40,051 nt of DNA from Gammaproteobacteria bacterium (GTDB lineage: Bacteria; Pseudomonadota; Gammaproteobacteria; Ga0077536), in assembly GCA_019747795.1 (NCBI GenBank), contig JAIEQK010000125.1, forward strand, positions 1-40,051. The letters run 5' to 3'. The translations under genes and the position numbers were made by a program. Positions 15,327 to 18,833 of this stretch are shown here, piece by piece; the stretch's first letter is position 1; the number at the start of each line of letters is the position of its first letter. The notes under the pieces were generated by a model that ran no database searches, had not been told where the DNA came from, and saw only the letters and a program-made list of their open reading frames with translations.

Positions 15327-15715
15327 GATTGCGGGGCGCCGTCGTCCAGCAGACCAAGCGCGACGAGACGCGCCAGGAACACGGCGTGTACCGCCTCGCG
15401 CTCGCTGCCGTGCACCGGCCCATCAGTCACGACCGGCGGCTTGCCACGCCCCTGCATGTGCCCCAGGCGATATCGCGCGTAGGGCTCTGCGGCGTAGGCA
15501 AAGGACTTGCCGGCGGTCGGCTGGTTGTGCAGGTAGTTCAGCACGTCCTGCAGGGCCGTCCCGTGGGGCGTGTCGGCGCCGCGCGGGTCCTCGGCGTGCT
15601 CGGCGAGCAGGGCCGGCGTCACCAGCGGCTTCAGCGCGGCGCGGCGGCGCTCCGCGAAGAAGTCGAGCCAGTCGGCGGTCTTGTCCCGGTAGTCTTGCGG
15701 ATTGCGCAGCGGCAT
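15323..15715 (-). CDS. N,N-dimethylformamidase-like small (alpha) subunit, 130 aa
   Basis: A 130-residue protein directly upstream of, and overlapping by four bases, the large-subunit gene. The known DMFase small subunit is of the same size (about 15 kDa) and gene order is the same, which is the main basis of the call. It is soluble and mostly helical, with NYLHNQPTAGKSFAYAAEPYARYRLG in the middle and GSEREAVHAVFLARLVALGLL at the C-terminus. The small subunit wraps around the large subunit in the known alpha2-beta2 enzyme. The start at 15715 follows a GGGGAG. First gene of the minus-strand cluster; divergent from the LLM gene at 15821, with a 105-bp gap that must hold both promoters. Confidence 0.82.
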   Translation of the reverse strand: MPLRNPQDYRDKTADWLDFFAERRRAALKPLVTPALLAEHAEDPRGADTPHGTALQDVLNYLHNQPTAGKSFAYAAEPYARYRLGHMQGRGKPPVVTDGPVHGSEREAVHAVFLARLVALGLLDDGAPQS

Positions 15716-15820
15716 GACATTTCTCCCCTCGGCGTTGGCCGGTCTTTGTGCCGGCGCTCGCCAGGGATTCTAATCCGGTCTTCGTCAATCGAGCGCGAGC
15801 GCCGCGCAGGGAGTTCCAAC

Positions 15821-16645
15821 ATGTCCGCTACCGCTACACCGCGCGTCGAACGCGGCCTCCTGCTGCGAAACATGGGCCCACAGTCGAGCCTCGCCATGCT
15901 GCGCGAATGCGCCGCGCTCGCCGAGCAGGCTGGCATCGATCACCTGTGGGTGGTCGATCACATCGCGATTCCGCCCGACGACGCCGAGGGTTCGGGCGGG
16001 CGCTACCTCGACCCGCTCGGCACGCTCGCGTGGCTGGCGGGCGCGACGACGCGCATCGGTCTCGGCGTGACCGTGCTGATCGCACCCTATCGGCCGAAAC
16101 TCCCGACCGCCAAGCTGATCGCGACCGTGCAGGAGCTCTCCGCCGGACGTCTGCAACTCGGCGTCGGCGTGGGCTGGATGGAAGCCGAGTTCCGCGCGCT
16201 GGGCGTGCCGCGCGGCGCGCGCGGGCGGCTGACCGATGAGTTCCTGGCCTTCCTGCACGAGTGCTTCGCGCACGACGTCGTGGAAGCCCATGGACAGCCC
16301 TTCATCTTCGCGCCGCGCCCGGCGCGGCCACCGGTGCTGATCGGCGGCGCGCCGGAACACGCGTTCGCGCGGGTGGTGGCCCACGGCGACGGCTGGATGC
16401 CGATGCGCGCCGAGGCCGCGACGCTCGCGCCGCAGCTCGCCGAACTGCGCGCGCGCATGGCGGAAGCCGGGCGTCCCGCGCCGCGGGTGGTGCCGCTGAC
16501 CGGGCTCAGTCTCGACGACGGCGTGCGCGCGGCGGACGAGCTGGCGGCACTGGCCGCGCTCGGCGTCGCTGGCGTGGTCCACGCCGCGCGCTATGACAGC
16601 GCGGCGGATTTCGGGCGCATGGTCGAGGGACTGGCGCGGCTGTAG
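15821..16645 (+). CDS. LLM class oxidoreductase (probably F420- or FMN-dependent), 274 aa
   Basis: A luciferase-like TIM-barrel oxidoreductase. ALAEQAGIDHLWVVDHIAIPP, LAGATTRIGLGVTVLIAPYR, and LSAGRLQLGVGVGWMEAEF are the standard blocks of the group often labelled F420-dependent (Rv2161c-like). Cofactor choice between F420 and FMN cannot be settled here, and no F420 biosynthesis gene lies in the window. ATG 15821 has GGGAG seven bases upstream; the open frame back to 15329 runs antisense to the amidase small subunit and is a shadow. At 274 residues it is at the short end for the family. Next to a palindromic repeat at its 3' end. Confidence 0.87.
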   Translation: MSATATPRVERGLLLRNMGPQSSLAMLRECAALAEQAGIDHLWVVDHIAIPPDDAEGSGGRYLDPLGTLAWLAGATTRIGLGVTVLIAPYRPKLPTAKLIATVQELSAGRLQLGVGVGWMEAEFRALGVPRGARGRLTDEFLAFLHECFAHDVVEAHGQPFIFAPRPARPPVLIGGAPEHAFARVVAHGDGWMPMRAEAATLAPQLAELRARMAEAGRPAPRVVPLTGLSLDDGVRAADELAALAALGVAGVVHAARYDSAADFGRMVEGLARL

Positions 16646-16656
16646 CCCGATGACAG

Positions 16657-16704
16657 GGGGACAGACCACGGTTTCGCGCGAGCGCGAAACCGTGGTCTGT
16701 CCCC
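16657..16704. repeat. Perfect palindrome, copy 1 (22-bp stem, 4-base loop)
   Basis: The arms at 16657-16678 and 16683-16704 are exact reverse complements; the loop is CGAG. It starts GGGGACAGACCACGG. The same element, with a compensated base-pair change, lies at 18275-18322. The two copies bracket the acyl-CoA synthetase gene. It resembles REP/REPIN-type extragenic palindromes mobilised by RAYT transposases. It also sits between convergent gene ends (stops at 16645 and 16708) and could work as a bidirectional RNA hairpin, though no T-tract follows. Confidence 0.85.
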
Positions 16705-16707
16705 GTT

Positions 16708-18240
16708 TCACTTCAACCGCGCTTCGAGCTCGTGACGCTGGATCTTGCCGGTGGTGGAGCGCGGAAGCTCCGCGTCGTCGACGAAGATGATGGCCTTGGG
16801 CCGCTTGTAGCTCGACAGGTCGCGTCGGCAGCGTTCGAGCAGGACTTCGGCTGTGACCGCAGGATCGAGGCGCGTGACGAAGGCCACCGGCACCTCGCCC
16901 CACTTGGCGTCGGCGCGGCGCACCACCACCGCCTCCTTCACGCCGGGCTCGGCGGCCAGTACGAGCTCTATTTCGGCGGGATAGATGTTCTCGCCGCCCG
17001 ACTTGATCATGTACTTCACGCGGTCGACGTAATCGAGGCTGCCGTCCTCGTTGCGCCGGAGCACGTCGCCCATGTGAAACCACCCGTGGCGGAAGTCGTG
17101 GGCGTTGGTCGCGTCGGCGTTCCAATAGCCGCTGAACACGGTCGGGCCGCGCACCGCGGCCTCGCCGGGCGTGCCGACCGGCACGTCGTTGTCGTCCGGA
17201 TCCACCAGGCGCAGCTCGCAGAACGCGCTCTGGCGCTTGGCGAGACTCCCCGGCACCACGCCGATGGGCAGCACGCCGCCGGTGGCCGGTGGCAGGCCGG
17301 TCTCGGTGGCACCGAAAGTGTTGTTGTAGGGCGCGTTCAGCACGCGGGTCGCGAGCGCGATGTCCTCGCGCGGCACGAGATCCGCCATCGCGCCGCAGAT
17401 GCCGATGCCCTTCACGCGAATGCCGCTCGCCTCCACCGCGCGCGCGAACTCGCCGACCATGCCGGGCATGAGAATGAAGAACTGCATGGTCTCACGCGCG
17501 ATGATCTCGATGAGCCTGTCGGGCTGGTACCCGTCCACCACGTGCACCGTACCGCCGCGCATCAGCGTGGCGAGAGACTGGTCGGTGGAGGCCATGTGAT
17601 ACATCGGCGCCCAGGCGACGAAATGATCGCCGACCGGCACACCGAGTTCGGAGGCGAAGCACATGGCGCGCGCGAGCATCGCGCGGTGGCTGATCATCGC
17701 GCCCTTGGGCAGACCGGTGGTGCCGCTGGTGTAGAGCACCACCAGCCCGTCCTCGGGATCGAGCGGGACGTGGGGACAGACGTCGGGCGCCGCTGCGAGC
17801 GCGCGCTCGTAGTCTTCACCTATCACCAGGCGCGGCAGCGGCGGCAGGTCCAGACGCTCGACGTTGGGCAACAGTTCGGCCTGCACCAGCAGCAGCGCCG
17901 GCCCCACCAGGGTCACGCTGTGGGTGAGTTCGCGATCCGCGAGCCGCCAGTTGAGACAGGCGACGATCACGCCGAGCTTGGCGGCGGCGAGTTCGATCTC
18001 GAGATACTCGCTGCAGTTGCGAGCAAGCAGCGCCACGCGGTCCCCGCGGCCGAGGCCGCGCGCAGCGAGCACCTGCGCCACGCGGTTCGAGCGTGATTCG
18101 AGTTCCGCATACGTCACCACCCGCGCGCCATCGACGATGGCGGGGCGGCTGGGATGGGCAGGCACGCGGCGGCGGAACATGTCGCCGACGGTGCTGCGCC
18201 CGGCGGCGAGGACGGGGAGCGAGGGCTGGTAGCGGGACAT
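16708..18240 (-). CDS. AMP-dependent acyl-CoA synthetase/ligase, 510 aa
   Basis: An ANL-superfamily adenylating enzyme that activates a carboxylic acid to its CoA thioester via acyl-AMP. Motifs in order: the phosphate loop YTSGTTGLPKG (170-180), NNTFGATETGLPP (A5 region), GWFHMGDVLRRNEDG (A7), YVDRVKYMIKSGGENIYPAEIE (A8 hinge), and the C-terminal lysine of STTGKIQRHEL (A10). Length is typical of medium-chain or aromatic acid ligases. The start at 18240 has no clear Shine-Dalgarno site. The region just upstream holds a half palindrome and a full REP-like palindrome, so translation or transcription could be affected by them. No carboxylate specificity can be read. Confidence 0.93.
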   Translation of the reverse strand: MSRYQPSLPVLAAGRSTVGDMFRRRVPAHPSRPAIVDGARVVTYAELESRSNRVAQVLAARGLGRGDRVALLARNCSEYLEIELAAAKLGVIVACLNWRLADRELTHSVTLVGPALLLVQAELLPNVERLDLPPLPRLVIGEDYERALAAAPDVCPHVPLDPEDGLVVLYTSGTTGLPKGAMISHRAMLARAMCFASELGVPVGDHFVAWAPMYHMASTDQSLATLMRGGTVHVVDGYQPDRLIEIIARETMQFFILMPGMVGEFARAVEASGIRVKGIGICGAMADLVPREDIALATRVLNAPYNNTFGATETGLPPATGGVLPIGVVPGSLAKRQSAFCELRLVDPDDNDVPVGTPGEAAVRGPTVFSGYWNADATNAHDFRHGWFHMGDVLRRNEDGSLDYVDRVKYMIKSGGENIYPAEIELVLAAEPGVKEAVVVRRADAKWGEVPVAFVTRLDPAVTAEVLLERCRRDLSSYKRPKAIIFVDDAELPRSTTGKIQRHELEARLK

Positions 18241-18252
18241 GGTGGCAGAGGC

Positions 18253-18266
18253 GACAGACCACGGTT
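18253..18266. repeat. Solo half-arm of the palindromic repeat
   Basis: GACAGACCACGGTT at 18253-18266 equals one arm of copy 1 (with GG, not GT, at the variable pair). It lies eight bases before the full copy 2, with no partner arm of its own. It looks like a degraded copy or half of a REP doublet. Confidence 0.6.
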
Positions 18267-18274
18267 CAGTTATC

Positions 18275-18322
18275 GGGGACAGACCACGTTTTCGCGCGAG
18301 CGCGAAAACGTGGTCTGTCCCC
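18275..18322. repeat. Perfect palindrome, copy 2 (22-bp stem, 4-base loop)
   Basis: Arms at 18275-18296 and 18301-18322 are exact reverse complements around CGAG. Relative to copy 1 the G-C pair after CACG is changed to T-A in both arms (CACGTTTT/AAAACGTG against CACGGTTT/AAACCGTG), so pairing is kept. It lies 34 bases upstream of the acyl-CoA synthetase start and 25 bases after the cupin gene's stop. Confidence 0.85.
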
Positions 18323-18347: not shown

Positions 18348-18833
18348 TCAGATGCGCTTCTGCACGAAGTCTTCGATGGTCGCGGTGGTCAGCACCTTGC
18401 CACTCGCGGTCAGCACCTCGAACAGCTTGCCGTCTTCGACCGCGTGGCAGCGGAAGAACACCAGCGCGCCTTCCGGGCCGCCGAACTCCATGTGCAGGTC
18501 GCCACCCGGGTTGTGCGCGACGAAGCCGGGCGTGCGCTTCTTGTGGATGGTCTGGTTGTCGGTGGTCTCGACCACGTTGTGCTCGCCGGCCAGCACTTCG
18601 ATGGAGGTGTTGCCCAGATGGCGGTGGTAGTGACAGTAGGCGTTCGGTTCCCACCACGACAGGAAGTCGATCACCCCGTTCTCGGCGTCGACGTTCAGGA
18701 CCGCCACGGAGTAGTCGATGGGGTAGTCGAAACGCGGCGTACCAAGCACGCGCTGCCACTCGAGATTCGCGAAGTCGTAACCGGTGGCGAGCGAGGGCTT
18801 GATGACGGGCGAGGCGATGGTGGATGCATTCAT
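18348..18833 (-). CDS. Cupin-domain protein, 161 aa
   Basis: A single-domain cupin. The first metal motif reads CHYHRHLGNTSIEVLAGEH, giving His68, His70, His72 and Glu79. The second motif contributes His114 in GGDLHMEFGGPEG. The complete ligand set suggests a metal-dependent dioxygenase or isomerase rather than a structural cupin. Size and the WWEPNAYCHYHRH opening recall small dioxygenases acting on hydroxylated ketones or diketones, but the reaction is not determinable. GAGG lies seven bases before ATG 18833. Same strand as the epoxide hydrolase upstream (76-bp gap), so likely co-transcribed. Confidence 0.82.
   Translation of the reverse strand: MNASTIASPVIKPSLATGYDFANLEWQRVLGTPRFDYPIDYSVAVLNVDAENGVIDFLSWWEPNAYCHYHRHLGNTSIEVLAGEHNVVETTDNQTIHKKRTPGFVAHNPGGDLHMEFGGPEGALVFFRCHAVEDGKLFEVLTASGKVLTTATIEDFVQKRI

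Follow-up and report, generated by a model that had tools for sequence, protein, structure and literature searches.

TIR-TIR hairpins and their TIRYT transposase in a gammaproteobacterial genome

The described systems closest to the repeat studied here are TIRYT/TIRtron and REPIN/RAYT. For the former, Di Nocera (2013) gives the terminal inverted repeat (TIR) motif GGGGWSAS, and self-complementary TIR repeats are reported there from S. maltophilia (PMC3733652). Subclass 2.1 of the TnpA-Y1 proteins is described as having an extra HTH-type C-terminal domain (Quentin et al. 2018, PMC6006769). For REPINs, Bertels and Rainey (2011) had earlier pointed out compensatory changes in the spacers (PMC3116915). 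Template switching can homogenise the arms of an inverted repeat in one event, with inversion of the spacer expected (PMC8604942, PMC3820800); the passages cited here are yeast work, whereas we infer the process from a natural bacterial repeat family only.

The family reported here resembles TIRYT/TIRtron in having a Y1 transposase between TIRs with the GGGGWSAS core, here GGGGACAG (PMC3733652), TIR dimers repeated in the genome, and a long protein with a C-terminal helical extension (PMC3733652, PMC6006769). Unlike the TIR repeats described in the cited passages of PMC3733652, it comprises about 70 near-perfect TIR-TIR hairpins in one genome, whose end code is kept across phyla and which show compensated arm changes and a bias to convergent spacers. 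It shares with REPIN/RAYT the inverted arm pairs that form hairpins, the compensatory changes, the intergenic siting and the Y1 transposase, but differs from the system as presented in the cited parts of PMC3116915 in that the GTAG tag is missing and inverted arms also delimit the transposase gene. A search of printed literature text, figures lying outside it, returned no occurrence of the arm sequence, and one unrelated match in a mouse paper for its reverse complement. The family is a new, unusually abundant and informative example of the known but little-studied TIRYT kind.

Two hairpins around an acyl-CoA synthetase gene and their copies in the genome

The window is a stretch of 40,051 nucleotides from a gammaproteobacterial assembly (GCA_019747795.1, contig JAIEQK010000125.1), and the features of the locus within it are as follows.

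16657..16704, no strand: TIR-TIR palindrome copy 1, pair 15 G-C, in a 62-bp convergent spacer
18275..18322, no strand: TIR-TIR palindrome copy 2, pair 15 T-A, 5' of the acyl-CoA synthetase start
18250..18266, plus strand: solo half-arm GGCGACAGACCACGGTT, one mismatch against the 14-mer, 8 nt ahead of copy 2
16708..18240, minus strand: acyl-CoA synthetase CDS between the palindromes (Pfam AMP-binding and AMP-binding_C)
15329..16645, plus strand: gene for a luciferase-like monooxygenase, its 3' end towards copy 1 (listed start codon)
18348..18833, minus strand: cupin-like gene 5' of copy 2 (Cupin_7 below cut-off, 21.3 vs 27 bits)

An earlier note on this DNA had described two perfect hairpins with a CGAG loop bracketing the synthetase gene, a single compensated pair between them and a solo half-arm beside copy 2, and all three descriptions were borne out. 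Each copy is 48 nt long, consisting of a 22-bp perfect arm, the CGAG loop and a second 22-bp arm, and the sole difference between them is pair 15, which is altered in both arms. Folding as single-stranded DNA gave about -30 kcal/mol for each copy, a value equalled by 0 of 200 shuffles. Both palindromes lie outside the synthetase CDS, copy 1 being 3 bp past its stop and 11 bp from the stop of the converging gene, and copy 2 being 34 bp ahead of its start. At up to 3 mismatches the window contained 11 arm matches against a mean of 6 in shuffles; a match with 2 mismatches inside the synthetase gene (at 17772) is of the kind expected by chance.

Among the 61 elements analysed below, the CGAG loop was found only in these two copies, and they are probably sisters. 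The same loop would also fit a composite mobile unit with the two palindromes as its ends and the synthetase gene as its cargo, as would the 77% identical orthologue in a sister genome, which has other neighbours and is without the palindromes, and the like bracketing of the TIRYT gene. However, each copy also fits a free-standing miniature element, local hopping of sisters accounts for the common loop, and a second copy of such a unit was not found, and we consider a composite unit very improbable. We looked within the genus for the window locus without its two palindromes and found no such empty site, the orthologue sitting among other neighbours.

Counting arm copies elsewhere in the genome, as the earlier note had proposed, gave 137 exact occurrences of the 14-mer GGGGACAGACCACG in 5.94 Mb (66 forward and 71 reverse) and 0 for the reversed-pattern control; the counts come from pattern searches and individually retrieved stretches of the genome. 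There were 50 arm pairs with a gap of 4-33 nt. At 15 places the gap was 34-63 nt, and some of these are a full hairpin with an extra half-arm. Most arms lie in arm-to-arm palindromes, of which there are at least 61, and these 61 pairs were analysed. Another 10 hairpins with imperfect arms (7 rows dropped) bring the genome to about 70. Including this genome itself, the exact arm was present in 8 of the 349 genomes of a phylum sample and in 10 of 58 relatives; since no other genome in either sample had more than 9 arms, this one is an outlier. A 400-kb sample of large contigs (L236-L255) contained 0 arms where about 9 were expected, so the spread of the elements is uneven, or smaller contigs are richer in them.

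Four elements (L142, L150, L162 and L183, around 1501-1571) have an unrelated perfect palindrome nested between the arms. In the sister genome G349, one contig (C104, L201) has three identical 41-nt hairpins, at 1, 6586 and 8304, and a search of that genome at up to 3 mismatches found no hairpins beyond these.

The Y1 transposases and their terminal inverted repeats

A Pfam Y1_Tnp search of the genome returned two genes, on contigs C134 and C64.

C134:410-1150, minus strand: intact TIRYT gene (P0001), 247 aa, Y1_Tnp 45.5 bits against a cut-off of 23
L034 (C64) 153-785: second Y1 gene, a true REP transposase, with classical GTAG hairpins 3'

The TIRYT gene lies between two palindromes of the family (413-453 and 1187-1227 of L033), which agrees with the suggestion to look for a RAYT gene with the arm on its flanks, this Y1 gene being RAYT-like. 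The palindrome at 413-453 overlaps the 3' end of the TIRYT reading frame. At 407-453 of L033 the frame continues through the palindrome, giving a C-terminal tail GQTTVSAKPWSVPD. The structure predicted for the protein had a mean pLDDT of 81 and, in Foldseek, was closest to the REP-associated transposase 4er8 (E 2e-8), followed by IS608 and ISDra2 TnpA. The HUH residues His60/His62 and several tyrosines were invariant across 32 aligned proteins. In the predicted structure the C-terminal part has helices at 167-179, 184-196 and 203-213. The TIRYT here probably belongs to TnpA-Y1 subclass 2.1.

A contig scan yielded 65 relatives of the transposase, 53 of which were examined for arms after 12 short matches (L118-L129) were left out; one further analysis step used 50 of the 65. 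Their records come from Beta- and Gammaproteobacteria and orders of these, Desulfocapsa, Desulfobacteraceae, Thermodesulfobacteriota and one Opitutaceae. The results showed a plus arm within 400 bp upstream of the transposase gene in 46 of 53 relatives, a minus arm downstream in 39, and both inverted arms around the gene in 34, while two scrambled control patterns gave 0 and wrong-orientation arms 2 and 1. The 14-bp end code is kept while the transposases drop to about 52-60% identity. Beyond this the TIR sequence shifts with transposase divergence, the start of the end sequence staying common: GGGGTCAGAGTAAA or GGGGTCAGACTCGATT at about 45-50% identity, GGGGACAGATTTATTT at 39% and GGGGACACAATACTT at about 32%. 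At several divergent loci no convincing end repeat was found. The GGGGWSAS motif fits the arm of this genome and also the divergent relatives, where it reads GGGGTCAG and GGGGACAC. In a same-genus genome with almost no hairpins, a TIRYT remnant with two in-frame stops was observed (L204, G350:C100).

Because the arms behave as the inverted ends of a transposase unit, the family is TIRYT/TIRtron and not REP/RAYT, and the arm is the terminal inverted repeat of a TIRYT rather than a GTAG-tagged REP. The earlier note had favoured REP/REPIN elements moved by a RAYT; it was right about the kind, a mobile hairpin with a Y1 transposase, but not about the family. The elements do have two inverted conserved arms, a variable spacer, multiple copies and extragenic siting, as REPINs have, and hairpin-forming inverted arms, the siting at gene 3' ends, the adjoining Y1 transposase and its nearest fold, that of the E. 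coli REP transposase, all speak for a classical GTAG REP/REPIN. However, the 61 palindromes are without a GTAG/GTGG tag at the foot, the TIR-like flanking of the transposase is conserved across phyla, and the C134 protein scored 69.4 bits against the NCBIfam REP-associated transposase model NF047646, below the cut-off of 80, compared with 141.7 bits for the C64 protein. A separate, genuine GTAG-REP/RAYT pair is found on contig C64 of the same genome, where GTAGGGCCGATTTCAATCGGCC forms GTAG hairpins at 617 and 749 and GTAGGGCGGGTTTCAACCCGCC is present in inverted orientation. A classical REP/RAYT origin of the window hairpins is therefore highly unlikely.

Pairing of the arms, outer stems and placement between genes

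In the 61 pairs, position 15 was paired in 60 and position 18 in 59 (shuffled expectation 0.60 for each), and positions 20-23 in 68-87% (0.35-0.38 shuffled), in statistics that take the copies as independent although they are related. A small number of inherited events, not many independent ones, may account for the variants at pairs 15 and 18. Among the 10 hairpins with degenerate arms, three (L145, L184:712 and L219) had a compensated double change, at three different positions, as the sole change within an otherwise fixed arm, and the remaining seven had nine single changes. About 0.01 doubles would be expected by chance on these filtered rows, 7 of 17 non-exact rows (L133:1966, L142:1522, L143:1454, L150:1501, L167:1501, L181:1530 and L182:1501) having been excluded by eye where the arm was paired with inner, spacer or unrelated sequence; the unfiltered rows gave 35 single and 3 double changes, with 0.11 doubles expected. 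The left and right ends of TIRtrons, about 750 bp apart, agreed at position 15 in 68% of cases, compared with 34% after shuffling; TIRtron ends are thus also homogenised, less fully than hairpin arms.

It had been proposed that the hairpin is either under selection or copied as a hairpin. The arm pairing and the compensated doubles favour copying, and template switching is probably the better explanation of the matched arms, selection on folding also being possible. Selection on an RNA hairpin, acting for instance as a bidirectional terminator or a stabiliser of mRNA 3' ends between convergent genes, would likewise make compensated changes, and a mobile origin would then be secondary. However, the inner pairs of hairpins of up to 50 nt comprised 307 Watson-Crick, 2 GT, 2 AC and 4 other pairs, so that an excess of GT wobble, which would point to RNA, is lacking. 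Triloops of the form GNA/TNC capped 24 of the 36 copies and, with each inner sequence counted once, 9 of 19, where 12.5% was expected. GNA triloops are unusually stable in DNA, and are special for DNA and not for RNA, which also argues against this reading. The GC-rich hairpin is strong (about -30 kcal/mol as single-stranded DNA) but is followed only by GTTT/GATT, so that there is little U-tract, and an Rfam search gave no match.

Pairing also extends outward from the arms. In the 61 elements it reached 79% at -2 (42% shuffled), 61% at -5 (27%), 61% at -6 (34%) and 43% at -7 (31%), was above shuffles at -3 as well, and showed nothing past -8, while single copies paired over up to 10 bp. The flanks at the foot read AAAC, AATC, ATTC and similar; 30 elements have fully matched AAAC/GTTT or AATC/GATT flanks, and in 26 such a flank palindrome spans 12 bp or more. 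Insertion into short palindromes already present would by itself account for this copy-specific outward pairing. However, only 52 AAWCGWTT sites occur in the whole genome, non-palindromic ones included, which is too scarce a supply of targets for the matched-flank elements, and we rejected this explanation as highly unlikely. The outer triplet at -7 to -5 was GCT in 6 of 17 cases (p 0.0008 by Monte Carlo), the base at -5 was T in 49% against a background of 10%, and the three G349 copies have a common outer GGGAAATA on their readable sides. The recurrent GCT and the GGGAAATA shared in G349 weaken a pure model in which the outer stem is made anew at each insertion. A pure model in which it is carried with the element is weakened as well, because copies with the same inner sequence have different outer flanks, showing that the outer stem does not travel with the inner sequence. 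Directly outside the arm the sequence is often a tandem repeat, for example of GGGAATTA units or of CGCGGGAAATA in two copies, which gives the impression of recopying (L074, L082, L108, the L139 flank and L201 6552-6586).

The expectation that copies avoid coding sequence also held, the elements being mostly intergenic and near stop codons. The 58 classifiable elements lay at 40 convergent, 16 tandem and 2 divergent junctions, whereas an independent 400-kb sample had 25 convergent junctions in 289 (p 1e-21); two elements inside read-through ORFs (L159 and L176) and one at a contig edge were left out. This baseline supersedes an earlier one of 7 in 122, which was biased by locus choice, and genes were called with an author-made codon-usage score trained on 21 window ORFs rather than with a standard caller. 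The median distance was 15 bp from element to stop codon (96 ends) and 87 bp to start (20 ends). REPs generally prefer such places, according to the passages cited from PMC3733652.

One convergent spacer, between genes that we take from their translations to be metW and xthA, was compared between this genome and 11 relatives in the hope of an empty site, but turned out to have palindromes of three different families: the TIR palindrome in this genome, a GTGG-type hairpin in two same-genus genomes, and in two others a AAAAGTGTCTGACACTTTT palindrome that is also found there upstream of a TIRYT relative. In three relatives the spacer is short and without a palindrome, and in four others none was obvious by eye. 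Paired copies of a palindrome AAAAGTGTCWGACACTTTT lie upstream of a TIRYT of 47% identity (L049 and L050, about 2305-2375); the palindrome is also found in the metW-xthA spacer (L226 and L227) and is probably another TIRYT hairpin family. These results, a lead from one locus, suggest that the same convergent spacer has been colonised repeatedly. The three families at one site fit the usefulness of any hairpin there, and with the short distance past stops and the convergent bias they favour the RNA hairpin, but the three short spacers lacking a palindrome do not. Taken with the stems, loops and flanks, we regard RNA-hairpin selection as unlikely to be the primary explanation.

A model for mobile hairpins and its meaning

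The reading that we prefer, and hold to be very probable, is that the hairpins are TIR-TIR miniature non-autonomous elements mobilised as single-stranded DNA by the TIRYT, with arms homogenised probably via template switching. Copy number, TIRtron anatomy, the association of TIR and transposase, placement and covariation were directly observed. We infer from them the recognition of single-stranded DNA, its cleavage, transposition and template switching. Two TIRs on single-stranded DNA would pair as a single perfect hairpin, in many cases with a GNA triloop as its cap. The TIRYT would read the conserved 14-bp stem, cut at the foot and move the hairpin. Arm complementarity would be kept by template switching within the hairpin, one arm being copied onto the other, and the loss of badly folding copies would help to keep it. 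Insertions would persist mainly in short convergent spacers or right after stop codons. The two window copies would probably have arisen as sisters by a short-range hop, after which one pair was altered on both arms.

Neither a transposition event nor an empty site was seen. Some 70 hairpins share the genome with a single intact TIRYT, and they may be old copies. We also put forward, tentatively and as a possibility of rather low probability, a spread on single-strand templates in which snap-back synthesis, at every insertion or replication, would rewrite one arm and a few flank bases from the other. A new copy would then gain a private inverted copy of about 3-7 bp of target flank, not a direct duplication, and short convergent spacers would be common landing zones, colonised again and again by unrelated palindrome families.

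TIRYTs are widespread, yet the name appears in few of the papers searched. The genome described here offers a clear system, with one transposase gene, a conserved 14-bp end code and about 70 countable hairpins, whose stems are a record of palindrome change. It makes two questions directly testable, namely whether template switching repairs palindromes in nature and whether mobile hairpins come to serve as 3' ends for convergent genes.
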